Positions 1,847-21,944 are shown, counted from the stretch's first letter. The stretch: 40,748 nt of DNA from Candidatus Naiadarchaeum limnaeum (GCA_014189685.1 DVAB01000017.1:1-40748); one strand, 5' to 3'. Numbers and translations are program-made. Notes: generated by a model not told the origin, from the sequence alone.

Positions 1847-2335
1847 ATGCTAACTCCAAAACAAATTGGTATAATTAATTTCGGATTGAGTATTTTGCTT
1901 GCAGTGATAGTCATTTCAAGCTATTTTACGATTCAGGATTTAGTTAGAAAGGAAGGCGGCGAATGCCCGCTTGGAAAAGAGTGCCCTGTTCATGAGGCTT
2001 TTCCAATTCAAACAATTATTGGTTTACTAGTTGTTTCAGCTCTTGCAATTACGGGATTAATGCTAATTGTGCAGCCTGAAACAAAATTCAGAATTCCACA
2101 ATTTGGAGAAAGAAGAAAATCTGAATTCGATATAATGCTATCTGCGCTTAGCAGTGATGAACAGAAAGTCCTAAGGATTTTAAAAGAGCAACCTGGAACT
2201 CCGCAAAATACTCTCCGCCTGAAAACCGATTTCTCAAAATCAAAGTTAAGCATGCTATTGAAAGATTTGGAAACGCGAGGATTGGTAAAGAAAGAGGCAG
2301 AGGGGAAGACTTTTAGAGTTTATTTGAAAAAGTAA
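1847..2335 (+). CDS. Membrane-anchored winged-helix regulator with extracytoplasmic Cys loop
   Basis: A 162-residue protein with two membrane helices (about 8-28 and 55-75) and a C-terminal winged-helix domain (about 95-160; LLKDLETRGLVKK is the recognition helix and wing). This layout matches archaeal membrane-bound MarR-like regulators. The loop between the helices holds two Cys and a His (CPLGKECPVH), which could sense metal or redox state outside the cell; that is inference. A GAGGTAAG ribosome binding site (1839-1846) precedes the ATG. It is divergent from the radical SAM gene and lies directly upstream of the metal/redox cluster that starts at 2454, so it is the likely regulator of that cluster. 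Confidence 0.8.
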   Translation: MLTPKQIGIINFGLSILLAVIVISSYFTIQDLVRKEGGECPLGKECPVHEAFPIQTIIGLLVVSALAITGLMLIVQPETKFRIPQFGERRKSEFDIMLSALSSDEQKVLRILKEQPGTPQNTLRLKTDFSKSKLSMLLKDLETRGLVKKEAEGKTFRVYLKK

Positions 2336-2343
2336 TTTAAAAT

Positions 2344-2390
2344 CGATTTGAACGATTTTGAACAATAATTAGACGATTTAGCTGATTTTA
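2344..2390 (+). promoter_or_regulatory. Paired CGATTT direct repeats, possible operator
   Basis: CGATTT occurs at 2344, 2353 and 2374, with TGATTT at 2383. This makes two copies of a CGATTT-N3-YGATTT unit offset by 30 bases (about three helical turns). They lie 30-80 bases upstream of the TATA box of the metal/redox operon, where an archaeal activator could bind. A T-run at 2394-2399 could end the upstream transcript. The assignment to the winged-helix regulator next door is inference. Confidence 0.4.
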
Positions 2391-2418
2391 AGCTTTTTTG
2401 GAGGACTGTTTAGACCTT

Positions 2419-2428
2419 AACATATATC
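2419..2428 (+). promoter_or_regulatory. TATA box of the metal/redox operon
   Basis: The sequence AACATATATC is centred about 30 bases before the ATG at 2454, giving a near-leaderless transcript for the first gene of the operon. Downstream genes are spaced by 0-50 bases or overlap. Confidence 0.4.
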
Positions 2429-2453
2429 GCATTACTATTTCATAGATTTGCAC

Positions 2454-2969
2454 ATGGAAGGAGAAAAGAAAAGCAATTATGCTGTAATTGCAGTCGCGAT
2501 TGTTTTTGTAATAGGATTGGCAGTTTATACACAGTACAGGATCAGCGCCACAAACACAGAGCTCGATAGAGTTGCAATAACAATGGCAACAGCAGCGCAA
2601 AGTGGAACTCAGCAAGCAGAGCCTCGGGGAATAAGCCAGCAGATGGAGATAAACTACAATACAGATGGATACAACACTTTGCTCAAATATTACAAATCTA
2701 TAAATCTAGATGCAGAGCAGAGCAAAAAAGTTGCAGGCTTAGATGTTGAGCTTCCTTGTTGCGGATTCCAGAAAATTGTAACAAAGACTGATGGAACTGC
2801 TGATTTTCCTGGAAGCTGTCATTGCGGCCACCACGATGCAATGTACGGATTGGCAAAGTACATGGTGCAAAAGGGATACAGCAGAGAGGAAATGCAAAAG
2901 GAGCTCGATGTTTGGAAAGAGGTTTTCTTCCCAACACAGGGCGGAGGCAACTTAGGAGGCTGCGCATAA
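2454..2969 (+). CDS. Membrane-anchored CC...CHCGHH domain protein, unknown function
   Basis: A 171-residue protein with one N-terminal membrane helix (about 9-27) and an outside domain. I do not recognise a named family. The domain has a vicinal Cys pair (PCC, C102-C103), then C122, C124, H126 and H127 in CHCGHH, followed by a helical segment ending in VWKEVFFP. The same order of motifs recurs in the protein at 7043-7996, so the two are paralogues. The Cys and His residues suggest binding of a soft metal such as copper, or thiol redox chemistry. The protein ends in GGGNLGGCA, with a Cys one residue from the end. The ATG at 2454 is preferred over an in-frame TTG two codons earlier. First gene of the operon. 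Confidence 0.75.
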   Translation: MEGEKKSNYAVIAVAIVFVIGLAVYTQYRISATNTELDRVAITMATAAQSGTQQAEPRGISQQMEINYNTDGYNTLLKYYKSINLDAEQSKKVAGLDVELPCCGFQKIVTKTDGTADFPGSCHCGHHDAMYGLAKYMVQKGYSREEMQKELDVWKEVFFPTQGGGNLGGCA

Positions 2970-2971
2970 TA

Positions 2972-3208
2972 ATGAAAAAAAGCGAATTTGTTTTGGTTGT
3001 GCTTGTAATTCTGCTGTTAGCAGTAACAGTGGTGCAGGCATATCAAATCACAAGCCTAAATTCAAAAGCAACTGCGCTTGCTACCGGCAACTTCAAAGTA
3101 GGTGGGGGGGCAGAATTCTCATCATATGATGAGATGATGGCTGAACACCACGGCGGCGAAGCACAAGCACCAACAGCACCTGCACAGGGAATTGGTGGAT
3201 GCGGCTAG
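2972..3208 (+). CDS. Small secreted or membrane-anchored His/Met protein with GGCG tail
   Basis: A 78-residue protein with a signal anchor or signal peptide (about 6-24) and a short outside part that contains MMAEHHGG and ends in GIGGCG. The cluster of Met, His and a near-terminal Cys resembles ligands for Cu(I), but no known family is recognised. It starts 2 bases after the previous stop, behind a strong ribosome binding site (AGGAGG at 2955-2960). The frame stays open upstream into the previous gene, but the ATG at 2972 gives the clean signal sequence. The tail resembles those of the proteins at 2454 and 7043. Confidence 0.7.
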   Translation: MKKSEFVLVVLVILLLAVTVVQAYQITSLNSKATALATGNFKVGGGAEFSSYDEMMAEHHGGEAQAPTAPAQGIGGCG

Positions 3209-3214
3209 AAACAG

Positions 3215-3793
3215 ATGAGCAAAGTAATATCAGATACAAAAATTTGCTTAGCCGCGCTACTTATTTTGGCTATCCTAATTGGGGGAAATTTCTTTATAAA
3301 AGGATTTTCTTCTCCCATAAATTTCAATAACGCAGTTGGAAAAGCAGCCCCTGAATTTAGTTTAGAAGATATTAATGCCAAAACAATAAAACTTAGTGAC
3401 TTGCGTGGAAAAAATGTTATCTTATTTTTCAATGAGGGCGCAATGTGCTATCCCTCTTGCTGGAATCAAATGCTTGAGCTGGCAAAAGATAGCAGGCTTA
3501 ACAATGAGAAAACAGCTTCTTTTTCAATTGTCATTGATACAAAGGAAGAGTGGGAAAGAATAACTAAGCAAATGCCAGAATTTTCTCAGACAAAGATCCT
3601 TTTTGATACGACAAAAAAAGTATCAACTGACTATGGAGTTCTTACGCTGCCTTCTTCAATGCATGTGGGCTCAATGCCTGGACATAGCTATGTCATTATC
3701 GACAAAAACGGAATACTCAGATATGTTTTTGATGATCCTAATATGGGGATAAGAAACGATATGCTATCCGCTGAAGTTACAAAGCTAATATAA
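3215..3793 (+). CDS. Membrane-anchored redoxin (AhpC/TSA or SCO-like) with CxxxC
   Basis: A 192-residue protein with an N-terminal membrane helix (about 9-28) and a thioredoxin-fold domain. APEFSLEDINAKTIKLSDLRGK is the usual redoxin entry, and the active site is MCYPSCW with C78 and C82 four apart. This CxxxC spacing, and a His in PGHSYVIIDKNG (H157), recall SCO-type copper chaperones, while the overall sequence is closer to the peroxiredoxin/redoxin group. It may pass electrons from the CcdA-like protein encoded 10 bases downstream, or deliver copper. Both roles are inferred from motifs and neighbours. Confidence 0.75.
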   Translation: MSKVISDTKICLAALLILAILIGGNFFIKGFSSPINFNNAVGKAAPEFSLEDINAKTIKLSDLRGKNVILFFNEGAMCYPSCWNQMLELAKDSRLNNEKTASFSIVIDTKEEWERITKQMPEFSQTKILFDTTKKVSTDYGVLTLPSSMHVGSMPGHSYVIIDKNGILRYVFDDPNMGIRNDMLSAEVTKLI

Positions 3794-3803
3794 GTTATAG
3801 GAA

Positions 3804-4676
3804 ATGGAACTACTGATTGGAACATCGCTCATAAGCGCTTTCATCGCGGGAATAGCTTCGCTTTTTGCGCCCTGCTGCATAACTGTTTTGTTGCCAACTT
3901 ATCTTGCATCAGTATTTAGAGAGCGAAAAACAGTTTTCTTAATGACTTTTATCTTTTTGCTTGGATTGCTTGCAGTTTTCCTTCCTCTTGGGCTTGGATT
4001 CGCAGGATTGGGGCAGCTATTTTCACAATACCATAATCTCATTTTTGCCATAGGAAGTTTATTCCTCGTATCCCTTGGAATTTCTTTACTAGTTGGAAAG
4101 CATTTTTCGCTTCCATTTTCTATGCAGGTTAATATGCCAACTCAAAGCACAACTTCGGTATTTGGCTTGGGGATATTTTCAGGATTTGCAACACTCTGCT
4201 GCGCGCCTGTTTTAGCAGGTGTGCTGGCACTCTCAATACTGCCTGGCTCAATATTTTGGGGTGGAATGTACTCATTGGCATATGTAATTGGAATGACACT
4301 GCCGCTTTTCTTTTTGGCATCTTTTTTGGATAAAACAAAAATAATGAGCAAACTTGGAATCTTGAAAAAGAGATTTTCGTATATGATTGCGGGGAATAAA
4401 ATAAATCTTTCAGTGGCAGATATGATTGCAGGCATTACTTTCCTTACAATGGGGGCAATCATTTTCTATCTTGCCCAAACAAACCAACTTATTTCGCATT
4501 CCTCAACACAGCTCTCAATCAATATATTCATGGCTAAACTCAACATTGCAGTTGGAAGTTTTGCTGAAAGCATCCCACTATTTGTATGGGTTTTGATATT
4601 TGCGGCTATTCTCGGTGTTATTGTGAAAATAGCACTTCAAAAAATAAAACAAACAAGGGGCAAGAAAAAATGGTAA
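3804..4676 (+). CDS. CcdA/DsbD-like thiol-disulfide membrane transporter
   Basis: A 290-residue protein with six to eight membrane helices, matching the CcdA/DsbD transmembrane family that moves reducing power from cytoplasmic thioredoxin to proteins outside. The two conserved Cys positions are each doubled: APCC at 22-25 and LCCAP at 131-135, where most family members have single Cys residues next to Pro. The C-terminus adds a further membrane helix (about 260-280) before a basic tail. The redoxin just upstream is the likely partner. The stop overlaps the next ATG. Confidence 0.8.
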   Translation: MELLIGTSLISAFIAGIASLFAPCCITVLLPTYLASVFRERKTVFLMTFIFLLGLLAVFLPLGLGFAGLGQLFSQYHNLIFAIGSLFLVSLGISLLVGKHFSLPFSMQVNMPTQSTTSVFGLGIFSGFATLCCAPVLAGVLALSILPGSIFWGGMYSLAYVIGMTLPLFFLASFLDKTKIMSKLGILKKRFSYMIAGNKINLSVADMIAGITFLTMGAIIFYLAQTNQLISHSSTQLSINIFMAKLNIAVGSFAESIPLFVWVLIFAAILGVIVKIALQKIKQTRGKKKW

Positions 4677-5176
4677 TCTGCATAGTTGCACTATTGGTAT
4701 TTGGAATAGCAGGGATTTTCAGCGCCACCCACAGGAAAATGTTTTATCAGGCGCTTCATTGCTTAAAGAGAAATATTATGCTGCGCCCCTGTGAAACAGG
4801 ATTTGACAGAAAATTAAAATATTCGATTGCGCGCCGAGTTTACAAATTCCCAAGATTGCATGATTTTGTTTACAGGCATTTTAATCTTTTTTCATGGCTT
4901 CTAGTCATTTTACTATTTGGAAGTTTATTCGTTAGCGCGCGCGGGCTTTATTATTTAGCCACTGAAAAAACCTGCGACCCCAATAATCCTGAGGGATGCC
5001 CATTGAGCAAAATAGCGGGCTATAATAAAACACAAGGCAATTGCGAAGTAAATATAGCTGCGGAGATAAAATCAAATCTATGTGAAGTCCCGCCCGGCTA
5101 TACCAACGAAAGCTGGTATGAGCACATGAGTCATCATCCAGATAGATATAAGGAATGTTTAAAAAATGAAACATAA
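4670..5176 (+). CDS. Cys/His-rich membrane protein, unknown function
   Basis: A 168-residue protein with two membrane helices (about 2-19 and 72-92). The part between is basic and holds RPCETGFD; the C-terminal tail contains C102, C110, C125, C138 and C163 plus EHMSHH. I know of no characterised function; similar proteins often sit beside CcdA-like genes, but I cannot check that here. The ATG at 4670 overlaps the CcdA stop (TAA at 4674-4676), showing translational coupling. The tail has motifs (CDPNNPEGCPL) that loosely resemble the Cys loop of the regulator at 1847 (GECPLGKECPV). Confidence 0.7.
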   Translation: MVICIVALLVFGIAGIFSATHRKMFYQALHCLKRNIMLRPCETGFDRKLKYSIARRVYKFPRLHDFVYRHFNLFSWLLVILLFGSLFVSARGLYYLATEKTCDPNNPEGCPLSKIAGYNKTQGNCEVNIAAEIKSNLCEVPPGYTNESWYEHMSHHPDRYKECLKNET

Positions 5177-5582
5177 GAAACAAGGAAAATTTACGAGCAT
5201 AGGAACAACTGCTTTTACAACCCTAGGAATCACTGCGCACAATTTCTGCCACTATTTATGTTTAGGCGTGGTGGCGCTTCTAAGTGTTGCCGGAGTAAGT
5301 GTAATTGGAATGCCTTTGATGTTCCTTGAAAGCTATGCAATTTATTTCTGGGCAATGGGACTGATTTTCTTAGCAGCTAGTTTCTATTTGCTCTATACAA
5401 GGCCGCTCTGCATTTCCAAAAACGCAATACTTGCAAATAGTGGGCTACTCATAATCGCAGTCCCGATAAAAGTAGGGAGTTTAAATTATGGATTTTGGGC
5501 AGGCGGGGGTTTGGTGGTTGCAACTGCCATATATTTATACTTAAAACCTAAATTCATAATTACAAGAGGAGGCAAAAAATGA
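5166..5582 (+). CDS. Small four-helix membrane protein, MerC/MerT-like features
   Basis: A 138-residue protein with about four membrane helices. A Cys pair in the first helix (FCHYLCLG) followed by a MPLMFLE segment gives a loose likeness to mercuric-transport proteins MerC/MerT/MerF, but the match is weak and no family can be assigned firmly. It overlaps the previous gene by 11 bases and the next by 4, so it belongs to the same operon. Transport of a soft metal ion, or anchoring a redox partner, is inference. Confidence 0.65.
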   Translation: MKHKKQGKFTSIGTTAFTTLGITAHNFCHYLCLGVVALLSVAGVSVIGMPLMFLESYAIYFWAMGLIFLAASFYLLYTRPLCISKNAILANSGLLIIAVPIKVGSLNYGFWAGGGLVVATAIYLYLKPKFIITRGGKK

Positions 5583-5830
5583 CAGTACAAAAACACGAGC
5601 TTGATACAAAAAGCCTTGCCATAACAGGAGGGATTATTGGATTTATTTCAGGAATTTTGGCAGCGATTATACACGGCGGAATTGGGGTTCAATCCTACAT
5701 GGGAATGGACAGAATGATGTGGGGGAGTCCGATGTTCGCAGGATGGGGGATTGTTTGGTTTACAATAATTGGCCTGTTTTATGGATGGCTTTTGGCAGTT
5801 GTGTATAATTATGTTGTAAAGAATTTCTAA
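5579..5830 (+). CDS. Small two-helix membrane protein (possibly DUF5676-like)
   Basis: An 83-residue protein with two hydrophobic segments (about 15-36 and 53-80) separated by a Met-rich loop (YMGMDRMMWGSPM). The ending (IGLFYGWLLAVVYN) recalls the DUF5676 family of small membrane proteins, which often lie beside heavy-metal ATPases; this is memory-based and uncertain. A strong ribosome binding site (GAGGAGG) precedes the ATG, which overlaps the preceding TGA. Confidence 0.6.
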   Translation: MTVQKHELDTKSLAITGGIIGFISGILAAIIHGGIGVQSYMGMDRMMWGSPMFAGWGIVWFTIIGLFYGWLLAVVYNYVVKNF

Positions 5831-5844
5831 AAGGGGTGATAAGC

Positions 5845-6600
5845 ATGAAATTGAAAGGAAAAGTAGCAATTGTTACAGGCTCTACTCGTGGAATTGGAAA
5901 AGCAATTGCAATAAGGTTTGCAAAAGAGGGCGCTAGGGTTGTGGTAAACGGTGTTTCTGATATAAAAAAGTGCGATGATGTTGTAAAAGAAATTAAAAAG
6001 TTTAGCGGAGAAGCAATTTCTATTCTTGCCGATGTCTCAAAAAAGGCAGATGTTGAAAAGATGATTTCTGAAACAGTGAAAAAATTCGGCCGCATTGATA
6101 TAATAGTTAACAACGCAGGAATTCTTGATATGAGCGATTTCCTCAGTTTAACAGAGGAGCACTGGGACCGCATTTTAGCTGTTGATTTAAAAGGAACATT
6201 TCTTTGCATGCAAGCTGCAGCAAAACAAATGATAAAACAGGGGAAAAATGGAAAAATAGTGAACATTTCAAGCATTGCAGGATTTGTCGGATTTACAAGG
6301 CTTGCTCATTACTGCGCAGCTAAGGCAGGAGTTATTGAATTAACAAAAGAGGTTGCGATTGAACTTGCGCCGCACAAAATAAATGTAAATGCAATCGCCC
6401 CGGGAGCAATTGAAACTGATATGACAAAAGATATTCTTGCAGACCCGCAGGCACTTAAAGGATTCCTTGGATTAATACCACTCGGAAGAATTGGAAAGCC
6501 AGAAGATATTGCAAGCGCAGCTTTGTTTTTGGCAAGTGATGATGCGAATTATGTTACAGGTGCAACTTTAATAGTAGATGGGGGATGGACGATACAATAA
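5845..6600 (+). CDS. Short-chain dehydrogenase/reductase, FabG-like
   Basis: A 251-residue classical SDR oxidoreductase. The NAD(P)-binding motif TGSTRGIG is at 11-18, NNAG at 89-92, the catalytic Ser at 142-143 (NISSIAG), and Tyr156/Lys160 in YCAAK. The ending LIVDGGW is typical of 3-oxoacyl-ACP reductase-like proteins. Ordinary archaea lack bacterial fatty acid synthesis, so a different substrate or gene acquisition from bacteria is likely. The ATG at 5845 has a ribosome binding site (AAGGGGTGAT); an in-frame GTG lies three codons earlier. Its place in a metal/redox cluster is unexplained. Confidence 0.85.
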   Translation: MKLKGKVAIVTGSTRGIGKAIAIRFAKEGARVVVNGVSDIKKCDDVVKEIKKFSGEAISILADVSKKADVEKMISETVKKFGRIDIIVNNAGILDMSDFLSLTEEHWDRILAVDLKGTFLCMQAAAKQMIKQGKNGKIVNISSIAGFVGFTRLAHYCAAKAGVIELTKEVAIELAPHKINVNAIAPGAIETDMTKDILADPQALKGFLGLIPLGRIGKPEDIASAALFLASDDANYVTGATLIVDGGWTIQ

Positions 6601-6643
6601 GCGTTGTAGAAAGAATAAATAGTATGAATTAATAAAGCGTGCT

Positions 6644-6787
6644 ATGGCAACCGACCCAGTATGCAAAATGGAAGTTCCTGAAAAGGAAATGGATTCAATT
6701 AGAACAAAGTATGGCACAAAAATACTTTTCTTTTGCAGCGATTCGTGCAAGAAAAATTTTGAGAAAGACCCTTCGAAATACACTTAA
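6644..6787 (+). CDS. Small YHS-domain protein
   Basis: A 47-residue protein that is a single YHS/TRASH-like metal-binding module. DPVCKMEV at 4-11 and FFCSDSCKKNF at 28-38 give the three conserved Cys of the fold, and the protein ends soon after KDPSKYT. Such modules occur alone or fused to Cu(I) ATPases, and one is fused to the ATPase encoded at 8010 in this cluster. It may act as a cytoplasmic copper carrier for that pump; this is inference. Confidence 0.8.
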   Translation: MATDPVCKMEVPEKEMDSIRTKYGTKILFFCSDSCKKNFEKDPSKYT

Positions 6788-6805
6788 ATTGAGAGGAGGT
6801 GAAAA

Positions 6806-6997
6806 ATGACTTTAAATGAAATCGCATTATTCCTGGCCGGTGGATTCACGTGGGATGTTGTATTGCATCTTGCACTTGCAGCTTCAAGAACTAAAGTAAA
6901 AATGTTCGGCATTACATTTACGGGGGGACACAATAAAACTCTGGCCATAACCAATGCAATTATAGCAGTATTGCTGCTGTGGTACGCGCTTGCCTAA
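6806..6997 (+). CDS. Small two-helix membrane protein, unknown
   Basis: A 63-residue protein with two hydrophobic segments (about 5-28 and 43-62) joined by a short basic loop. A strong ribosome binding site (GAGGAGGTG at 6793-6801) and position between two metal-related genes support that it is real. No family is recognised. Confidence 0.6.
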   Translation: MTLNEIALFLAGGFTWDVVLHLALAASRTKVKMFGITFTGGHNKTLAITNAIIAVLLLWYALA

Positions 6998-7042
6998 GAT
7001 AGGTATTTGAGTGGCCTTCTAACTATATTTAATTTTTAAAAA

Positions 7043-7996
7043 ATGGCTAAGCAAAAAAAAGGGCTAAAAACAAGCTCTAAATCTAAAAAGTATTTGGGAA
7101 TTGATAGAAAACGTCTCCTCATAGGCAGTGTGATTGTAATAGTTTCTATATTGAGCATGATTATCTTGGCACAGAAACAGCAAAACAAAGAAATTAAAAC
7201 TACTGAGAACGAAACTCTTGACTTTGCTGCTCTTGCAAATGAAGTTATTCCTCAGAATGGATTTGAAACAAATGCAAAATGGGGCTGTACAGGGAAAAAA
7301 CTTGTTGAAAGCGGTGCAATAAACCTTGAAAAATTTAAATTGCTCTATGAGAGAGGAGGCAGGCCGCTAACAGAGACGCAGTTAAGCATACTGACAAAAT
7401 GCACAGATGAAACCCTGAAAATAGACAACGGAAATGCTCATTTTATGCTAAATGTTCTCTGGGCACTTGGGCTTTCAAACAAAAATGCGCTTTTGGACAA
7501 AATAGCAAAAGAGGCTGATTTTGACATAGGAAATCTCGCAAGCACAGGAGGCTGGCCACTTGGAAATATCAGTGGCGGAGAATTGTGGGGAAAATACGAA
7601 ATTATAAAGTTAAATGCAGGGCAACAGAAAATTGTTGAAAAAGTTGCGCTAAATACATACCGGCCGTGCTGCAACAATCCAACAGCTTTTCCAGACTGCA
7701 ACCACGGAGCAGCTGCGCTTGGACTGATTGAGCTAATGGCATCGCAAGGGGCAACAGAAGATGATATTTTTGAGGCTTTGAAAATCTATAATGCATATTG
7801 GTTTCCGCAGCAGTACTATGAGAATGCAATTTATTTTAAACTTGCCGAGGGAAAAGAATGGAAGGACGTTGATCCGAAAGTTGTTTTAGGCTTTAATTAT
7901 TCAAGCGCCTCAGGATGGACGCAGGTTAGCAATTACTTACGAGCCCAAGGCATCTTTAAACAAGTAGAAGGGAGCGGAGGGCAGTGCGGGGTTTAA
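7043..7996 (+). CDS. Membrane-anchored CC...CNHG domain protein, paralogue of 2454 product
   Basis: A 317-residue protein with a basic N-terminus, one membrane helix (about 26-43) and a large outside part. The domain at about 200-256 has RPCC (C209-C210), FPDCNHG (C219, H221), AALGLIELMASQG and NAYWFP. This is the same motif order as in the protein at 2454, with CHCGHH reduced to CNHG. Two more Cys (C82, C120) lie in an N-terminal extension absent from the smaller paralogue. The protein ends in GSGGQCGV, again with a near-terminal Cys in a Gly-rich tail. Function unknown; metal binding or thiol redox is inferred. The YHS-ATPase gene follows after 13 bases. Confidence 0.75.
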   Translation: MAKQKKGLKTSSKSKKYLGIDRKRLLIGSVIVIVSILSMIILAQKQQNKEIKTTENETLDFAALANEVIPQNGFETNAKWGCTGKKLVESGAINLEKFKLLYERGGRPLTETQLSILTKCTDETLKIDNGNAHFMLNVLWALGLSNKNALLDKIAKEADFDIGNLASTGGWPLGNISGGELWGKYEIIKLNAGQQKIVEKVALNTYRPCCNNPTAFPDCNHGAAALGLIELMASQGATEDDIFEALKIYNAYWFPQQYYENAIYFKLAEGKEWKDVDPKVVLGFNYSSASGWTQVSNYLRAQGIFKQVEGSGGQCGV

Positions 7997-8009
7997 GCGT
8001 TTCATAGAT

Positions 8010-8216
8010 ATGGCCCATGATATAATCTGCGGAATGTATGTTGACGAGAATGCAACTCCATTTAAAGCTGAACAAGAGGGCGTGAAATATTATTTTTGCA
8101 GCAAAAACTGCCTTGAGGATTTTTTGCAGCCGCAGCAAGAGCTTAGCAAGTTGATGCTCGTTTCAATTTTTAGCATTTCACTTGGAATAACAACTGCAGT
8201 TTTTGAATCCATTTAG
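8010..8216 (+). CDS. YHS domain and first membrane helix of a Cu(I) ATPase, cut by TAG
   Basis: This 68-codon reading frame begins with a YHS metal-binding module (DIICGMYV, YYFCSKNCLEDF) and runs into a hydrophobic helix (about 48-65) that matches the first membrane helix of a Cu(I) P-type ATPase. It ends at TAG 8214-8216. The frame continues without shift after the TAG through the second helix and into the ATPase core at 8343. The two pieces therefore look like one gene of about 700 codons with an internal amber codon. Pseudogene, sequencing error, readthrough or two separately translated pieces are all possible. Confidence 0.7.
   Translation: MAHDIICGMYVDENATPFKAEQEGVKYYFCSKNCLEDFLQPQQELSKLMLVSIFSISLGITTAVFESI
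8214..8216 (+). other. In-frame TAG inside the Cu(I) ATPase gene
   Basis: The TAG lies between the first and second membrane helices. The codons after it (8217-8342) encode a normal second helix ([20 protein letters not shown]) in the same frame as both flanking pieces, and no ATG, GTG or TTG restarts before 8343. TAG also ends other genes in this window, such as 2972-3208, so general recoding is unlikely. Confidence 0.7.
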
Positions 8217-8342
8217 AGGGTAGCTCCATTTGGCTTAACAAATGAACTGCTTCTGTTCCTGCTAGCAACTCCGATTCAATTCATAGGAGGCTACAGATTT
8301 TATCGCGGAACAATAGATGCAATTAGAGCAAGACAAGCAAAC

Positions 8343-10109
8343 ATGGATTCTTTAATTGCAGTTGGGACAACAGCTGCGTGGCTTTACAGCACAATTGTAA
8401 CTTTCTTCCCATGGGTTTTTCCGCCAGCCGCTGGAAGCATAACTCAAGTTTATTTTACTGAAAGCGGATTGATAATTGGATTTATTTTGCTCGGGAAATA
8501 TATGGAATATCGCGTAAAGGGAAAAGCAGGCGAAGCAATCCGCAAACTTCTGGACTTGCAGCCGAAACTAGCAACTGTTCTTAGGGATGGAAACGAAATT
8601 GAGATTCCAGCAGAGCAGGTTAAAGTTAATGATGTTTTAATTGTAAAGCCAGGGCAAAAAATTCCTGTTGATGGAGTTGTTATTGATGGGCACAGCTCTG
8701 TTGATGAATCAATGATAACCGGAGAATCAATTCCAGTTGAGAAATCAATAAAAGATAAAGTAATTGGAGCCACAATTAATAAGCACGGAGTTTTGAAAAT
8801 TAAAGCAACGCAAGTTGGAAGTGAAACAACTTTACAGCAAATTGTTAAAATGGTGCAATCTGCTATTGTTTCAAAAGTTCCGATGCAAAGGCTCGCTGAT
8901 TTAGTTTCAAGCTATTTTGTGCCTGCGGTTATTTTAATTGCACTCGGAGCTTTTGCGTTTTGGTATTTTGTTTATGGGATGAGCTTTCCGCTCTCATTGG
9001 CAATTTTGATTTCTGTTCTAATTATCGCATGCCCTTGCGCATTAGGAATTGCAACTCCGGCAGCAATTATGATCGGAGCCGGTAAGGGGGCGCAAAATGG
9101 AATTTTGATTAAAAGTGGAGAGGTTTTGGAAAAAGCAAAAAAAATAAACACAATTATTTTTGACAAAACAGGAACCTTAACAAAAGGAGAGCCTTCTGTA
9201 ACTGATATTTTTGTTATTGGAAAAGGAAAAGAGAAAGAGCTTTTAGAATATGCAGCCGCTGTTGAGAAAGGAAGCGAGCATCCTCTGGGGGATGCAATTG
9301 TAAAAGCTGCTGAAAACAGGGGAATAACATTGTACGATGCAAAAAGTTTTGAAGCAATTTCTGGCATGGGAGTAAAAGCAACTTACAAAGGAAGGCAGGT
9401 TTTGCTTGGAAACAGAAAGCTAATGCAGGAATTTAAAATTCCAATTGAGGAAAAAGTAGAGCAAAAAATCTCTGCGCTTGAGGAAGATGGAAAAACAGTT
9501 ATGTTTGTGGTGATTCAAGGAAAATTAATTGGAATAATTGCAGCTGCTGATACTCTTAAAGAAAATTCCGCTCCAGCTGTTCAAAAATTACAAGCAATGA
9601 GCATTGATGTTTATATGCTCACAGGAGACAATCAGAGAACTGCAAATGCAATCGCTCGAAAATTAGGAATAAAAAATGTTTTAGCAGAGGTTTTGCCAAA
9701 GGACAAAGCAAATGTAATTTCAAGCTTGCAAAAACAGGGAAAATTTGTTGCAATGGTGGGCGATGGAATTAATGATGCGCCAGCTTTAGCGCAGGCAGAT
9801 GTTGGAATTGCAATAGGAAGCGGCACAGACATTGCAAAGGAAACAGGGGGAATTGTTCTTATTAAAAATGATTTGCGAGATGTTATTGCTGCAATTGATT
9901 TGAGCAAAAAAACTGTTTCAAAAATGAAGCAAAATTTGTTCTGGGCGTTCTTTTACAATGTTGCATTAATTCCAATTGCAGCAGGCATTTTATTTATTCC
10001 ACTTGGATTAAGGCTTAATCCGATCTTGGCAGCCATTGCAATGGCTTTAAGTTCAATAACTGTTGTGAGCAATTCAATGCTTTTGAATTTCTATAAACCC
10101 AAACTTTAG
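8343..10109 (+). CDS. copA: Cu(I)-exporting P1B-type ATPase, core part
   Basis: This 588-codon frame holds the core of a P1B-1 ATPase that pumps Cu(I) out of the cytoplasm. The ion-binding CPC is in IIACPCALG, the phosphorylated Asp in DKTGTLT, the nucleotide-domain HP motif in SEHPLGDAI, the hinge in [10 protein letters not shown], and the Cu(I)-specific C-terminal helices have YN and MALSS. The start given is the first ATG after the internal TAG; it has no ribosome binding site and would drop the first two membrane helices of the usual eight, so the functional protein most likely begins at 8010. The preceding YHS module replaces the usual heavy-metal-associated domain. Confidence 0.85.
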
Positions 10110-10114
10110 TAAGC

Positions 10115-10124
10115 TTTATAAATA
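10115..10124 (+). promoter_or_regulatory. TATA box of the cupredoxin gene
   Basis: TTTATAAATA is centred about 29 bases before the ATG at 10149, consistent with a leaderless transcript and showing that the cupredoxin has its own promoter. Confidence 0.5.
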
Positions 10125-10148
10125 TGAATTTGTTATGTGCGCCTAACC

Positions 10149-10610
10149 ATGAAAACTAAAGTTAGTATTGTGCCAATACTTGCAATAATTGCGGCACTCC
10201 TTATTGCAGGGTGTACATATTCTCAAGCCTCTAACGGAGCTGGAAATACAACAACTGCGACACCACCACCAACGACTCCACCAACCCCGCCAAGCCCACC
10301 AGCACCCCCGGGACCTACTGGAACTATAACAGCTCAAATAAAGGAATTCACAGTTGAAGGAAGCGAGTTCAAGTTTACCCCAAATTCAATTTCGGTTTCA
10401 AAAGGGGACAAAGTAAGCATAACTTTCAAAAATACTGGAAAATTCCCGCACAACCTTATCATTGATGAGCTGAATGTTGCAACAAAGACAATCAGCCCAG
10501 GGCAAACAGACACTGTTGAGTTCACAGCAAGCAAGAGCGGAACATTCGCAACCTATTGCAGTGTAGGCAACCACAGAGCACAAGGAATGGAAGGCTGGAT
10601 AGAGATTTAG
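10149..10610 (+). CDS. Cupredoxin (blue copper) lipoprotein
   Basis: A 153-residue type 1 copper protein. A signal peptide ends in the lipobox-like LIAGC (C22), so it may be lipid-anchored outside the cell. A Pro/Thr-rich linker (35-58) is followed by a plastocyanin-like domain with ligands H101 (FPHN), C137, H142 (YCSVGNH) and M147. It would carry electrons or bind copper at the cell surface. The ATG at 10149 is chosen over a GTG four codons earlier because of the TATA spacing and signal peptide. Its position just after the Cu(I) ATPase supports copper as the metal of the cluster. Confidence 0.85.
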   Translation: MKTKVSIVPILAIIAALLIAGCTYSQASNGAGNTTTATPPPTTPPTPPSPPAPPGPTGTITAQIKEFTVEGSEFKFTPNSISVSKGDKVSITFKNTGKFPHNLIIDELNVATKTISPGQTDTVEFTASKSGTFATYCSVGNHRAQGMEGWIEI

Positions 10611-17074: not shown

Positions 17075-17833
17075 ATGACATTGGGGTTAATATTGCTCTC
17101 TGTATTGATTGTGAGCTTGGTTTCTTTAGTTGGAATTCTCACAATTTCAATGAGTGGCAGAAAGCTAAAAAACATAATTTTTATTCTTATAAGTTTCGCA
17201 GCAGGAACAATGCTGGGCGGAGCATTTTTTGATTTACTCCCGGAGGCTGCAGAAATTGAAGGTATTTTAATCGCAGACATATTTCTTTACACTCTCATAG
17301 GCGTGATAGTTTTTTTCCTGATTGAAAGTTTCATTCACTTGTATCACTGCCACGTTGGCTACCACAAGCCGCACGAATATAGACATAAGCCAATTGCCTA
17401 TCTAAGCTTAATCGCAGATGGACTGCACAATTTTTTAGATGGGATTGCAATTGCGATTAGTTTTCTTGTAGGGATCGAAGTTGGGGTTGCTGTAACAATT
17501 GCAGTTATTTTGCATGAAATCCCGCAGGAGATAAATGATTTCAGCATTTTGATATACGGAGGATTTAGTAATTTGAAAGCACTGGGCTTTAATTTTCTCT
17601 CTGCACTAACAGCTTTTATTGGGGCGCTTTTTGCATACTTTTTTTCAGCAAGCATGGGGGGCGGACTTACCGCATTCCTGTTAGCTTTTAGCGGTGGCGG
17701 ATTCATTTACATGTCAGCTGCAAACTTAATTCCCGAGATGCATAGGGAAGCACATTTTGATAAATCAGTACTGCAGCTTATTGTACTATTATTAGGAATC
17801 GCAATTATTTTTGTGATAACAAATTTTGCTTAG
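17075..17833 (+). CDS. ZIP-family divalent metal transporter
   Basis: A 252-residue membrane protein of about eight helices. The signature of the ZIP family is clear: HNFLDGIAIA in the fourth helix and HEIPQEINDF in the fifth, which form the metal-binding site, and a His-rich loop (HLYHCHVGYHKPHEYRHK) before them. ZIP proteins bring Zn, Fe or Mn into the cytoplasm. The leader holds three hairpins. The GDT1-type transporter gene follows after 6 bases, so the two are co-transcribed. Confidence 0.9.
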   Translation: MTLGLILLSVLIVSLVSLVGILTISMSGRKLKNIIFILISFAAGTMLGGAFFDLLPEAAEIEGILIADIFLYTLIGVIVFFLIESFIHLYHCHVGYHKPHEYRHKPIAYLSLIADGLHNFLDGIAIAISFLVGIEVGVAVTIAVILHEIPQEINDFSILIYGGFSNLKALGFNFLSALTAFIGALFAYFFSASMGGGLTAFLLAFSGGGFIYMSAANLIPEMHREAHFDKSVLQLIVLLLGIAIIFVITNFA

Positions 17834-17839
17834 AAAAAA

Positions 17840-18394
17840 ATGATAATAGAACTCCTAGCAACAATTGTAATAATTTTTCTCGCAGAACTTGCAGATAAAA
17901 CGCAGTTAGTCATTTTTTCATTGGGAATAAAATATAGAAAGCCATTGCAAGTTTTTTCTGGGGCACTTCTTGCCCATGGAATAATGGATGGGATAGCAAT
18001 AGTTGCAGGAAGTTTAGTTGCAAGTTTCTTTAAAATTGCTTTCTTAAAGGTAGGGATAGCGGCGCTCTTTATTCTCATTGGAATTTATATGATCTTTAAA
18101 GAGAAAAAAACAAAAAAAGTTCCGCCGCTTATAAAAAATGTCTTTCTTGCAGCTTTTGCACTTATATTTCTAAGCGAATTTGGGGACAAGTCACAAATCG
18201 CTGCCGGGCTTCTTGGGGCAAAATACAATTTGCCTTTAATTGTTTTTGCAGGAACAATGTTGGGATTGGCACTTGCAATAGGACTTAATTTGTTATTAGG
18301 CAAAAGAATTGCAAAATTCATTGGCTATGAAAAAGCTGAAAAAATTGCTGCGGGATTATTTATAGTCTACGGAATAATATTCCTTTTGTTATAA
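17840..18394 (+). CDS. GDT1/UPF0016 family cation transporter
   Basis: A 184-residue, six-helix protein made of two related halves, each with the family's acidic motif: ELADKTQ near residue 14 and EFGDKSQ near 114. GDT1/TMEM165 homologues move Mn or Ca, often against protons. Together with the upstream ZIP gene this suggests balance of manganese or another divalent metal. The TAA stop shares a base with the next ATG. Confidence 0.9.
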   Translation: MIIELLATIVIIFLAELADKTQLVIFSLGIKYRKPLQVFSGALLAHGIMDGIAIVAGSLVASFFKIAFLKVGIAALFILIGIYMIFKEKKTKKVPPLIKNVFLAAFALIFLSEFGDKSQIAAGLLGAKYNLPLIVFAGTMLGLALAIGLNLLLGKRIAKFIGYEKAEKIAAGLFIVYGIIFLLL

Positions 18395-18819
18395 TGGAAA
18401 ACATTGTAGAAATTTTGCAGAGTTCAAAAACAATTGCGGTTGTGGGCTGCAGCAAAAATCCGGGAAAGGACGCGCACGATATTCCTGCATTAATGCAATC
18501 AAAAGGTTATGGAATTATCCCAATAAATCCAACTGCGGATGAAATTTTAGGAGAAAAAGCGTATCCAAATTTATTGTATCTTCCTTTAGATTTAAAAAAG
18601 CAAATTGACATTATTGATGTTTTCCGGCCTTCAAACGAAGTTGCTGGAATTGTAGAACAAGCTTTGCAATTGCAAAAAGAAACTGGGAAAAAATATGTAA
18701 TCTGGACTCAGCTTGGAATTCAAGATGATACAGCAGCGGCAAAAGCGCGAGCCGCAGGATTAAAAGTTATTCAAAATCACTGCTTAAAAATAGAGTACAA
18801 TAAATTATTTCCTTTTTGA
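18394..18819 (+). CDS. CoA-binding domain protein (YccU-like)
   Basis: A 141-residue single-domain protein of the CoA_binding_2 family, with a Rossmann fold. The entry motif is IAVVGCSKNPGKDAHDIP, followed by GYGIIPINPTADEILGEKAYP, the most typical part of the family, and VIWTQLGIQD near the end. The biochemical role of the family is not well defined. It is translationally coupled to the transporter upstream and ends convergent with the glutaredoxin gene, overlapping it by 15 bases. Confidence 0.9.
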   Translation: MENIVEILQSSKTIAVVGCSKNPGKDAHDIPALMQSKGYGIIPINPTADEILGEKAYPNLLYLPLDLKKQIDIIDVFRPSNEVAGIVEQALQLQKETGKKYVIWTQLGIQDDTAAAKARAAGLKVIQNHCLKIEYNKLFPF

Positions 18820-19095
18820 TTTCTTTTTTGGCTTTATTTGTGTAACAGCATGCGAGCCTATTCCTAAAACCTCATCAAGCGCGCTTTTATTCCAGCCAAT
18901 TATTACGTGTTCCTCTGAATCCGTAATAACAATAACCGGAACTCCGCGCTGGCCACTCTTATTAACCATTACATCGCGCGCCTTCAGATCAGAAACAACA
19001 TCTTTTTCAGTATATTTTATATTGTTCTGTTTAAAGTACTCTTTAGTTGCTCTGCAATAAACGCAAGTTGGGGTTGTATAAATTATTACTTTCAT
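18805..19095 (-). CDS. Glutaredoxin-like protein
   Basis: A 96-residue thioredoxin-fold protein with a CVYC active site (C11, C14) after IIYTTPT, the cis-Pro loop GVPVIVI, and a basic C-terminal tail (KPKKKSKRK). It resembles NrdH/glutaredoxin-type electron donors. The start is the ATG at 19095, not a longer open frame that would run across the divergent gene. Likely cytoplasmic thiol reductant. Confidence 0.85.
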   Translation of the reverse strand: MKVIIYTTPTCVYCRATKEYFKQNNIKYTEKDVVSDLKARDVMVNKSGQRGVPVIVITDSEEHVIIGWNKSALDEVLGIGSHAVTQIKPKKKSKRK

Positions 19096-19147
19096 AATTT
19101 GAGTTAATCCCAATAAATTTATAAGTGTTGCGTAATTAAATATATAC

Positions 19148-19381
19148 ATGGCCCAAGTTCCAGTTATGATGGTAGAAGTTGAATTGACTTGCAAGAAATG
19201 CACTCGGAAAGAAAGAGTTGATGTTCCAATCGCCTGTGATGTTAGTACTGAAGTAAAAGGCGGTGCACTGGCTTGCAGTTTTATTGGGGATGTAAAACAA
19301 TATCTCAAAGAGTGCAAGGAGTGCGGCTCAAAACAGTTTAAGGTAGAGCAGAAAAAGATTCGCATGGGAACTGGCGCGTAA
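19148..19381 (+). CDS. Small zinc-ribbon protein
   Basis: A 77-residue protein with two CxxC pairs (CKKC at 15-18 and CKEC at 56-59) that could bind one zinc. The rest gives no family match. A TATA box (ATTTATAAG near 19118-19126) about 26 bases upstream supports a leaderless ATG. It is divergent from glutaredoxin and precedes the DtxR-type regulator. Confidence 0.7.
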   Translation: MAQVPVMMVEVELTCKKCTRKERVDVPIACDVSTEVKGGALACSFIGDVKQYLKECKECGSKQFKVEQKKIRMGTGA

Positions 19382-19401
19382 ATTTCTATTTTTAAAGTAG
19401 G

Positions 19402-19439
19402 TAAGGCAAACCTTATATATCCAGTTAGGCATCCTAACT
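19402..19439 (+). promoter_or_regulatory. Two DtxR-type operators flanking the TATA box of the regulator gene
   Basis: Inverted repeat TAAGG-CAAA-CCTTA (19402-19415) overlaps the upstream edge of the TATA box TTATATAT (19413-19420). A second, AGTTAGG-CAT-CCTAACT (19423-19439), lies between the TATA box and the leaderless ATG at 19444. They match the TTAGG/CCTAA half-sites of iron-dependent DtxR/IdeR regulators. Binding would block the promoter, giving self-repression. Confidence 0.75.
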
Positions 19440-19443
19440 TTGT

Positions 19444-19827
19444 ATGAGAAAATCTGAAATCGAATCAAGAGAGATGTATTTGAAAGCTATTTACAATATT
19501 CAGAGATATGAGCATAGAAATGCACGGCCAGTAGATGTCTCAAAATATTTGGAGGTCAGCAAGGCGAGTGTTTCTGAAATGGTTAAAAAAATGCGAAAAC
19601 AGAAATTGTTAGTTTACAAGCAGGGAACTGCAATTAGATTAACAAAGCAGGGTTTGATTGGTGCAAGAAAAGTAACTCATCATTACAAGGTACTTGAAGA
19701 TTTTTTTAAAAGAGTATTGAAACTTTCAGAAGAGCGCGCCGCAAAAGAGGCCTGTGATTTGGAGCATTTTTTCGCCGATGATACCATTACAAGATTAAAA
19801 AGATTAACAGATACTTATTCTAAGTAA
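19444..19827 (+). CDS. DtxR/MntR-family metal-dependent repressor
   Basis: A 127-residue regulator with an N-terminal winged-helix domain (about 8-70; VSKYLEVSKASVSEMVKKM is the DNA-reading helix region) and a short dimerisation/metal-binding helical domain with HHYKVLEDFF and ACDLEH, in line with the family's metal ligands. It lacks the C-terminal SH3-like domain, as in MntR. The operators before its own gene and before the FTR1 gene show it most likely senses iron and represses uptake. Confidence 0.9.
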   Translation: MRKSEIESREMYLKAIYNIQRYEHRNARPVDVSKYLEVSKASVSEMVKKMRKQKLLVYKQGTAIRLTKQGLIGARKVTHHYKVLEDFFKRVLKLSEERAAKEACDLEHFFADDTITRLKRLTDTYSK

Positions 19828-19831
19828 AAAC

Positions 19832-19858
19832 TTATATATAGGGTTAGGCATACCTAAC
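19832..19858 (+). promoter_or_regulatory. TATA box and DtxR-type operator of the FTR1 gene
   Basis: TTATATATA (19832-19840) is followed directly by the inverted repeat GTTAGG-CATA-CCTAAC (19843-19858), which matches the operator at 19423. The operator covers the expected transcription start, so bound repressor should block iron permease expression. Confidence 0.75.
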
Positions 19859-19871
19859 TCCGTGATATAAT

Positions 19872-20705
19872 GTGGGCTTACCTACATTTGTAATAACATT
19901 CAGGGAAACTTTAGAAGCTGCACTAGTTGTTGGAATTATTTTAGTTTATTTAATAAAAACAGAAAATACAAAGTATAACAAATTTGTCTGGGGCGGGACT
20001 TTTTCTGCAATTGTCGGAAGCGGAGTAGCAGCTTTTTTGTTCAGCAGATTCGCAGGCGGCTTCACAGGAGCTACTGAGCAAATTTTTGAGGGCGCAACAA
20101 TGTTTGCTGCTGCTCTCTTACTTACTACAATGATATTCTGGATGCTAAAGCAAAAACATCTAATTGCAGAGCACATAAGGGCGCAGCTCTCAAAGCACAT
20201 AGAGATGGAATATGAGATTGGAATTTTTGCTCTTGCTTTTGTAATGGTTTTGAGGGAAGGAGTTGAAACTGTTATATTTTTAAATGCAACTGCATTTATT
20301 GGACAATTTGATTTCCTAAGCGGAATTTTAGGAATTATAGTTGCAGTTGGGCTGGGATTTGTAATTTTTGCAGGAATAAAAAGAATTGATTTGAAAAACT
20401 TTTTCTCAGTTACAAGTGTGCTTTTAATTTTATTTGCAGCTGGACTAGTTGCCCATGGTGTTCATGAATTTGAAGAGGCGGGAGTTGTAAATCCGATAAA
20501 AACTCCAGTGTACAATATAAATCATATTTTGGATGAAAAAGGAGTTGTGGGAAGTTTCTTGAAAGCCTTGTTCGGATATAACGGAAATCCAAGTTTGATG
20601 GAAGTGCTAAGCTATCTGGGGTATATAGGATTGATAGCAATTGTCTATTATAATTTTGATAAAATTTTTAAAATACAGCAGCCAATTGCAACAACTAGTT
20701 CTTGA
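19872..20705 (+). CDS. FTR1-family iron permease
   Basis: A 277-residue membrane protein with about seven helices and two REXXE iron-binding motifs, RETLE at 11-15 and REGVE at 128-132, as in Ftr1/EfeU. It would import ferric or ferrous iron. The start is a GTG at 19872; an ATG two bases earlier (19870) is out of frame and meets a stop after seven codons. The DtxR-type operator upstream supports iron control. The final stop lies at the edge of an inverted repeat shared with the convergent gene. Confidence 0.9.
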   Translation: MGLPTFVITFRETLEAALVVGIILVYLIKTENTKYNKFVWGGTFSAIVGSGVAAFLFSRFAGGFTGATEQIFEGATMFAAALLLTTMIFWMLKQKHLIAEHIRAQLSKHIEMEYEIGIFALAFVMVLREGVETVIFLNATAFIGQFDFLSGILGIIVAVGLGFVIFAGIKRIDLKNFFSVTSVLLILFAAGLVAHGVHEFEEAGVVNPIKTPVYNINHILDEKGVVGSFLKALFGYNGNPSLMEVLSYLGYIGLIAIVYYNFDKIFKIQQPIATTSS

Positions 20706-20762
20706 CACAAAGGGTAGCATCAGAGAGCAATTAATTTATCTGCTAATCAACTACCCTTTGTG
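20706..20762. terminator. Long inverted repeat between convergent genes, possible bidirectional terminator
   Basis: CACAAAGGGTAG (20706-20717) is exactly repeated in reverse at 20751-20762, giving 12-base arms around a 33-base loop. The right arm overlaps the last codons of the minus-strand gene. Its place between convergent stops suggests transcript ending or mRNA end protection. Confidence 0.55.
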
Positions 20763-21181
20763 AACGCGCCAAGCAAATAGAGTGAAACAAACATAAGTAC
20801 AAGCCCAATTAGCATAAGCGGAGTCCTGTATGCTGAAAGGAATATTACAGTATTAAATCCAAGTGCTTGTGCAAGTATTGGAATGCAGGCAGGGCATTGA
20901 AATGCAAAAATTCCTAAAATCGAGCCTGCCTGGCTTGAAGCGCTTTTTAATTCGCAGGCCTGAATTTTTTGCCTGAATGAATGGTATTGTATTGACATTG
21001 TTATTCCAAAAAGAATTGAAAAAATCATGTAAAGCACAAAGTTCAACGGGCTGATAAAGGTAAACCATATATCTAGATTTCCAAGTGATTGAAAAGTCGG
21101 AAAAATTAGAAGCATAACGAATGTAGCTGCCACTGCGGTTGCCAAATAACGCTTCTCGGAAAGAATTTTAAAAAGTTTCAT
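20747..21181 (-). CDS. Four-helix membrane protein with CPAC motif, possible DsbA partner
   Basis: A 144-residue protein with four membrane helices (about 13-30, 40-63, 84-108, 111-140). The third helix begins with FQCPACIPIL (C96, C99), and C76 precedes it. The CxxC in a four-helix protein just downstream of a DsbA gene recalls DsbB and VKOR, which reoxidise DsbA, but the sequence does not look like either family. The ATG at 21181 has a ribosome binding site (GTGAG) and lies 10 bases after the DsbA stop. Function as a DsbA oxidase is inference. Confidence 0.65.
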   Translation of the reverse strand: MKLFKILSEKRYLATAVAATFVMLLIFPTFQSLGNLDIWFTFISPLNFVLYMIFSILFGITMSIQYHSFRQKIQACELKSASSQAGSILGIFAFQCPACIPILAQALGFNTVIFLSAYRTPLMLIGLVLMFVSLYLLGAFTKGS

Positions 21182-21191
21182 CTCACGAGCT

Positions 21192-21944
21192 TTACCGCGC
21201 CCATTCAATTTGTTTTGCAAATAAAGTATCGTGGTATTCCCAGTATTTTCCTTGTTCCCCTGCACAGAGAGCAGTCTCGGCAGCTTTCTGAGCAAGTGGA
21301 TGAATGCTTCTCAGTGGGAAATCTTTGTAAACAAAGAGAACTTTTCCAGTATCAACATAATCTTTCTTAATCTGCGGCAATGTATCTTTCCAGAATTTCC
21401 CACAGAACGGGCACTGAAAATCAGAAAATTCGAGCATTATAATTGGAGCGTCTTTTTTGCCAAGTGTTTGATCTTTTGAATTGACAAGGCTTAATGCCAT
21501 GGAGCGATTTGACGGAGTTGCTAGTTCTTTATCCAATATTGATTTAAATTCCTCGTAAGGAGCTGCACCTATTGGAACAAGCTGCCCATTTATAACAAAA
21601 GTTGGTGTTCCTGTTGCACCTAGTGCTAATGCAAGTTTGTAATCAGAATTTACATCTTCTGTGTATTCCCCATCATCAACACAGGATTCAAATTGTTGCT
21701 TGTTCAACTTTAGATCAGTTGCATATTTTGTAAATAGCGCATCTCGTGTCACTGTTATTCCTTGCGAGCTGCCCTCGCTACCATCTCCAGTAAATGATGT
21801 CTGTATGCCAGTGGAAGTTGTTCCAAAGCTCTGCTGAATTCCAAAATAATAGCCTGCAAACGCTCCTACAACCAAGCCAAAAACAAACAACAATATAGAT
21901 AGATGGGAACTTTTCACCTGGACGTGTTCGCTTTTTTGTTCCAT
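21192..21944 (-). CDS. DsbA-family thiol-disulfide protein with swapped halves
   Basis: A 250-residue membrane-anchored thioredoxin-fold protein. After the anchor (about 15-38) comes the part that is normally C-terminal in DsbA_4 proteins: the helical segment LFTKYATDLKLNKQQFESC, then the cis-Pro loop GTPTFVINGQ (P114) and the last helix to about 141. The part that is normally N-terminal follows: DAPIIMLEFSDFQCPFCGKFW with the active site C178-C181, then HPLAQKAAETALCAGEQGKYWEYHD, and the protein stops. This is a circular permutation of the usual order. The rest of a normal C-terminal half is absent downstream, where the next gene starts after 10 bases. It likely makes disulfides outside the cell with the downstream CPAC protein. 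Confidence 0.85.
   Translation of the reverse strand: MEQKSEHVQVKSSHLSILLFVFGLVVGAFAGYYFGIQQSFGTTSTGIQTSFTGDGSEGSSQGITVTRDALFTKYATDLKLNKQQFESCVDDGEYTEDVNSDYKLALALGATGTPTFVINGQLVPIGAAPYEEFKSILDKELATPSNRSMALSLVNSKDQTLGKKDAPIIMLEFSDFQCPFCGKFWKDTLPQIKKDYVDTGKVLFVYKDFPLRSIHPLAQKAAETALCAGEQGKYWEYHDTLFAKQIEWAR

Follow-up and report, generated by a model that had tools for sequence, protein, structure and literature searches.

The stretch of DNA analysed here, which we call the window, comprises 40,748 nucleotides from Candidatus Naiadarchaeum limnaeum (GCA_014189685.1, DVAB01000017.1:1-40748; G000:C51 in our set), whose genome amounts to 984 kb in 52 contigs. Between positions 1847 and 10610 it holds a run of 14-15 co-directional genes, + strand throughout, in which a family of membrane-anchored Cys/His proteins that we call CC1 is accompanied by candidate copper and thiol-redox genes. 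A sequence-only reading of this DNA had listed a membrane regulator, CC-domain proteins, a redoxin, a CcdA-like carrier, small Cys/His/Met-rich membrane proteins, YHS modules, a Cu(I) ATPase and a cupredoxin, lying in one direction with tiny gaps or overlaps. Open reading frame (ORF) calls and domain searches recovered every one of these elements, and the compact layout is as described: most gaps are below 50 nt or are short overlaps, and the largest, 118 nt, separates the regulator from CC1. The list needs two corrections, in that it omitted an oxidoreductase of the short-chain dehydrogenase/reductase (SDR) type and counted separately a YHS module and an ATPase that form one gene split by an in-frame TAG. 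The features of the run are these (TM, transmembrane; wHTH, winged helix-turn-helix):

1847..2335, + strand: membrane winged-helix regulator, arranged as TM helix, predicted extracytoplasmic loop with GGECPLGKECPVH, TM helix and MarR-like/DUF7343 wHTH
2342..2391, no strand assigned: repeats CGATTTGAACGATTTTGAACAAT / CGATTTAGCTGATTTT between the regulator and CC1, from a repeat search
2454..2969, + strand: CC1, anchored by an N-terminal TM helix, a linker, a helical Cys/His domain (CCGF...CHCGHHDAMYGLAKY...KEVFFP) and a C-terminal GGCA
2972..3208, + strand: small tail protein (sGGC), with a TM helix, a low-complexity linker and a C-terminal GGCG
3215..3793, + strand: membrane-anchored redoxin with MCYPSCW (C-x3-C) and PGHSY
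3804..4676, + strand: CcdA/DsbD-like electron carrier, a membrane protein with two Cys-Cys pairs (APCCI, TLCCAP)
4670..5176, + strand: m168, a DPANN membrane-anchor module (RPCETGFD) fused to a Cys/His/Met-rich C..PPGYTNESWYEHMSHHPDRYKECL module
5166..5582, + strand: MerT-like multi-TM protein with CH..C and CISKN motifs
5579..5830, + strand: m83, a 2-TM protein resembling DUF5676 (Pfam E 0.042)
5836..6600, + strand: SDR oxidoreductase of the FabG type (adh_short_C2, 1.4e-73)
6644..6787, + strand: stand-alone YHS metal-binding module (YHS, 7.9e-11)
6806..6997, + strand: m63, an ORF for a small membrane protein
7043..7996, + strand: CC2, anchored, with a C-terminal CC domain (YRPCCNN...FPDCNHGAAA...YWFP) and the tail GGQCGV
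8010..10109, + strand: YHS - Cu(I)-type P1B ATPase, interrupted between TM helices 1 and 2 by a TAG (8214-8216)
10137..10610, + strand: lipoprotein-like cupredoxin with the type 1 copper ligand pattern PHN...C-x4-H-x4-M

In a typical CC1 a TM helix is joined by a disordered linker to a helical domain in which CC, CxC and H are invariant, the four cysteines and the histidine being constant across the CC1 alignment. The window protein falls within the family, with a CC...CxCxH domain and a C-terminal GGC in the variant GGCA (alignments A1 and A6), and the same domain recurs in CC2 (hhalign of CC1 against CC2: 95.5% probability, E 1.6e-8), whose tail Cys is invariant in an alignment of six members. 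Six proteins of the run (CC1, the small tail protein, m168, the MerT-like protein, m63 and CC2) have no significant match in Pfam or NCBIfam, and CC1 has none in a PDB sequence search either. An AlphaFold2 model of a typical member (mean predicted local distance difference test, pLDDT, 89) has no Foldseek match in PDB at E<=0.001 and a best VIA-align Z of 3.8, and the window domain modelled alone (pLDDT 78) has no significant PDB fold match. A weak match to Erv1 (E 2.3) was not used.

Of 394 archaeal genomes chosen from across the domain, 31 carry CC1. A collection scan, made with the narrower alignment A2 because the first was too diverse, found it in 202 stretches of genome contigs, of which 80 were kept for analysis. 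The kept loci, most of them with DPANN names, come from Woesearchaeota, Pacearchaeota, Aenigmatarchaeota, Diapherotrites, Micrarchaeota, Nanoarchaeota and other archaea, together with one bin labelled Bacteroidetes (L125, a groundwater contig), a label that is likely a binning error. Among six genomes of the phylum to which the window belongs, CC1 was found in its own only, and it was not found among the IMG/VR viral contigs.

We clustered ORFs from the window and from L028-L130, 104 sequences in all, and compared, over the same 100 loci, those within 6 kb of CC1 with those elsewhere. Counts near and far were 65 and 2 for the small protein, 64 and 1 for a membrane protein with an AHCPLCT motif, 46 and 6 for a cluster of MerT-like and HHP-module proteins, 42 and 2 for DUF411, 33 and 0, 30 and 0, and 17 and 0 for three regulator clusters, 31 and 5 for the cupredoxin and 29 and 14 for the ATPase cluster, a contrast overstated about threefold by the shorter far stretches (579 against 1684 ORFs). 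Because the parts of the run recur around CC1 in 100 loci, the run is not a chance assembly. CC1 is followed directly by the small protein 58 times, at a median gap of 4 nt, and a wHTH gene adjoins CC1 in 37 same-strand pairs and 13 divergent ones. The window keeps this core order of regulator, CC1 and small protein. Gene order, proposed earlier as a check on the system, is thus conserved for the core; the remainder is a mosaic, the full order was seen in no other locus, and the 14 genes do not form one fixed set.

The linkage to copper genes can be stated statistically. Of 28 CC1-positive genomes, 15 have a P-type ATPase no more than 10 kb from CC1, against 1.4 expected, and none of 200,000 random-placement simulations reached 15. 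CC1 and CopG/DUF411 share 11 genomes (Fisher p 8e-8, uncorrected for kinship); DUF411 matches the CopG structure 6wis (2.4e-20), and PMC7558416 describes CopG as thioredoxin-like, as binding a tetranuclear copper cluster and as linked to copA. In the 56 CC1 loci that extend over 14 kb or more ("long loci"), with genes labelled by cluster and motif, a copper gene is present in 47 and a thiol-redox gene in 42, which together with the ATPase and CopG/DUF411 linkage bears out the dual copper and thiol theme proposed for the window. On a further check proposed earlier, the small proteins do not always accompany the ATPase: a Cu-type ATPase is found in 35 of the 56.

A second signature lies in the tails. 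An exact C-terminal MVGGC ends 82 of 104 CC1 proteins and 73 of 76 small proteins, and of the 163 G[GA]C-type ends among 2343 ORFs, 159 belong to these two families. Genome-wide, MVGGC before a stop occurs 43 times in the 394 genomes, 37 times within 20 CC1-positive genomes and six times in 363 others (p 8e-21), and within CC1-positive archaeal genomes every occurrence lies within 1.5 kb of CC1. Five of the six remaining matches are short chance frames, and the sixth (G331), a 56-aa TM-like ORF among unrelated genes, is ambiguous. Since the MVGGC codons vary between copies, selection acts on the peptide. The window itself has variants (GGCA in CC1, GGCG in the small protein, whose homologues in L028 and L016 were found by tblastn, and GGQCGV in CC2), as does CC1 of L028 with GACG. 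An MVGGC tail beside CC1 offers a genome-wide signature for locating and testing the island. A 56-aa TM-like ORF ending in ALPSMVGGC (L161:1958-2125) occurs in a genome with DUF411 in which CC1 was not detected.

The ATPase gene of the window (YHS 1.1e-11, E1-E2 ATPase 1.4e-57) is closest to Archaeoglobus CopA (3j08, 1.6e-191; a zinc ATPase scores 3.1e-91 in the same PDB search), and it has the P1B-1 motifs CPC in TM4, DKTGTLT, SEHPL and M-x2-SS in TM6. It differs from CopA in its N-terminal YHS in place of an HMA domain and in a frame that, in the assembly, is broken by the TAG. That stop is absent from the L028 and L037 homologues; the former (L028:11615-13708) is continuous, ordinary residues taking the place of the stop, and has identities of 59% in the YHS part and 69% in the ATPase part. 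Reassignment of the codon was rejected, as neighboring genes terminate with TAG. The cupredoxin (Cupredoxin_1 7e-15, Copper-bind 4.3e-12) has the type 1 His, Cys, His, Met spacing (alignment A5).

Among the thiol-redox genes, the redoxin matches AhpC-TSA (6.9e-19) and is 55% and 52% identical to its homologues near CC1 in L029 and L037; it has a CYPSC motif, and the His of PGH[ST]Y, a candidate counterpart of the distal His of Sco/SenC chaperones, is common to several homologues. The carrier scores 29.3 bits against DsbD_TM (6.7e-7), above the cut-off of 27.1, and is 62% and 56% identical to its L029 and L037 homologues. The regulator combines a wHTH matching Pfam DUF7343 (5.7e-11) with two preceding hydrophobic helices, and its loop cysteines C40 and C46 are kept in 95% and 94% of 81 aligned relatives. 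TRASH/CopT-type archaeal copper regulators have a TRASH metal-binding domain, whereas the window regulator gave no TRASH match in Pfam at E<=1, its matches being DUF7343/MarR-type wHTH families only. From the sequence, the wHTH would lie on the cytosolic side and the loop outside, and the repeats at 2342..2391 are a possible operator, or chance.

We propose, with a probability of about 0.55, that the run is a membrane-bound, sensor-controlled DPANN island for copper and thiol homeostasis. Hypothetically, the conserved Cys pair lets the two-TM regulator sense external copper or the thiol state, and this regulator controls the genes as an operon. CC1, CC2 and the small tail protein would bind Cu(I), or a similar soft metal, and hand it on at the outer face, while the CcdA-like carrier and the anchored redoxin (with CopG and thioredoxin-like proteins in relatives) would keep thiols reduced or interconvert the redox states of copper. 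The YHS modules and the P1B ATPase would expel cytosolic Cu(I), and the cupredoxin would receive or buffer copper. On the sequence-only reading the system could reduce copper or load it into surface proteins; both activities, like a specificity of CC1 for copper, are conceivable. More tentatively, CC1 and the small protein, otherwise unrelated, may represent a new type of membrane-tethered relay: their MVGGC tails, carried on flexible arms, would dock into a common partner or site so that Cu(I) or electrons travel along the outer membrane face of DPANN cells, or could be recognition tags for some modification.

Although the genomes of DPANN archaea, an abundant and mostly uncultured group, are reduced, many families retain the island, which suggests a common, unstudied form of surface copper handling among these tiny cells. 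The island places several unnamed protein families alongside copper and thiol genes and gives them a joint function that can be tested. The sequence-only reading knew of no described archaeal system with this set, and we found no paper on it in the open-licence literature (DPANN with copper, cupredoxin, CopA or thioredoxin). Among the nearest known systems are the bacterial cop/cut islands (CopA with CopG/DUF411 and the cupredoxin CopI): here, as there, a Cu(I) ATPase, a plastocyanin-like protein and, in relatives, a CopG-type protein of thioredoxin fold are clustered. Unlike them, the window lacks both CopG and a multicopper oxidase, and CC1, the small tail protein, the AHCPLCT, MerT-like and EEH families and the membrane wHTH regulator do not appear in the islands as given in the available part of PMC7558416.

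Several observations weigh against a copper and thiol homeostasis island. Nine of the 56 long loci have no copper gene (one, L050, is spurious and lacks the core), and CC1 of G021 stands beside a triple-thioredoxin protein with no copper gene on its 12.6 kb contig. DUF411 (CopG, CxCC motif), present in 42 related loci, was not matched in the window genome. The in-frame TAG may mean that export is disabled in this population, or may be a sequencing or assembly error. Searches of PDB by sequence and fold gave no structural relative of known function for CC1, and copper binding is a prediction from sequence, by which copper is indistinguishable from other soft metals. Finally, ORFs were called mechanically and related genomes are not independent samples.

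The strongest competitor, though doubtful, is an extracytoplasmic thiol-disulfide or persulfide relay, in which CC1 and the tail cysteines would receive electrons from CcdA and redoxins, and copper genes would be frequent yet secondary neighbors because copper poisons thiols. CcdA, redoxin, DsbA, triple-thioredoxin or CopG genes account for the 42 thiol-redox loci, CC1 stands with a triple thioredoxin but without a copper gene in L055 as in G021, and a CC2 homologue in L038 has a rhodanese-like N-terminal stretch, read by eye. Against this stand the copper gene in 47 of the 56 long loci, an ATPase linkage far above chance, the conserved His beside the cysteines, and CopG.

Two further alternatives are less likely than a thiol relay. 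A maturation line supplying copper to surface cupredoxins or CuA proteins, in place of a detoxification system, is unlikely: a cupredoxin lies near CC1 in 31 loci, but most loci lack one and no cuproenzyme was recognised in the island. Sco proteins have a C-x3-C spacing, which the window redoxin shares, but at E<=1 in Pfam it matches AhpC-TSA and Redoxin only and no Sco/SenC family. CuA "nosZ-like" proteins are reported from DPANN in the available text of PMC10936187, which does not describe the CC1 island, and the CuA pattern present in L044 and L048 would fit such a line, whereas the cupredoxin of the window follows the type 1 pattern. Handling of mercury or another soft metal, with MerT-like proteins importing metal that thiols capture, is improbable. 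The family common near CC1 does resemble MerT weakly, and Cys-rich tails would suit Hg(II), but the window protein scores E 0.012 and 16 bits against NCBIfam MerT, far under the cut-off of 130; no MerA or MerB was recognised among labelled neighbors, and both the linked ATPase and DUF411 belong to copper types. Chance or operon hitch-hiking, by which unrelated small membrane genes happen to adjoin a copper ATPase, could account for the unique 14-gene order and the passenger-like SDR and m63 genes, but it is very improbable and already contradicted by the conserved core, the strong near/far contrast and the exact common tail across many DPANN genomes.

The C-terminal module of m168 occurs in 19 loci, and in L039 its anchor module is followed by a DsbA-like domain instead. 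The MerT-like protein is 35-45% identical to its homologues and clusters with the HHP-module proteins, and a homologue of m83 adjoins a YHS gene in L037. The SDR gene, near CC1 in 5 of 100 loci, is possibly a passenger; m63 looks like another, with no homologue among the clustered loci.

Related loci show further variations. CC1 is fused behind a multi-TM domain with Cys-x2-Cys (CPSC, CPAC) in L045:2260-3651, L048:8086-9474 and L028:2800-4314, and the CC2 homologue with the rhodanese-like stretch is at L038:13519-14703. Near CC1 in four loci are small anchored Cys-rich proteins (cluster 61), presumably of the Pfam family of PCYCGC-motif proteins; alike as they are in build, profile comparison ruled them out as kin of CC1, with 1.9% and 0.7% probability against CC1 and CC2. 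CuA-pattern cupredoxins (C-x3-C-x3-H-x2-M) lie within CC1 islands at L044:11272-11655 and L048:7676-8086, and the island offers a setting in which to view the CuA and plastocyanin-like proteins of reduced DPANN genomes. Elsewhere in the window, a DsbA-like protein lies beside a CPAC-motif membrane protein (20747-21944), a pair also present in some CC1 loci, and ORFs at 17075-20705, read by eye as a ZIP transporter, a GDT1-type exporter, a glutaredoxin, a DtxR-like regulator and an FTR1-type permease, would make up a second metal-related stretch.

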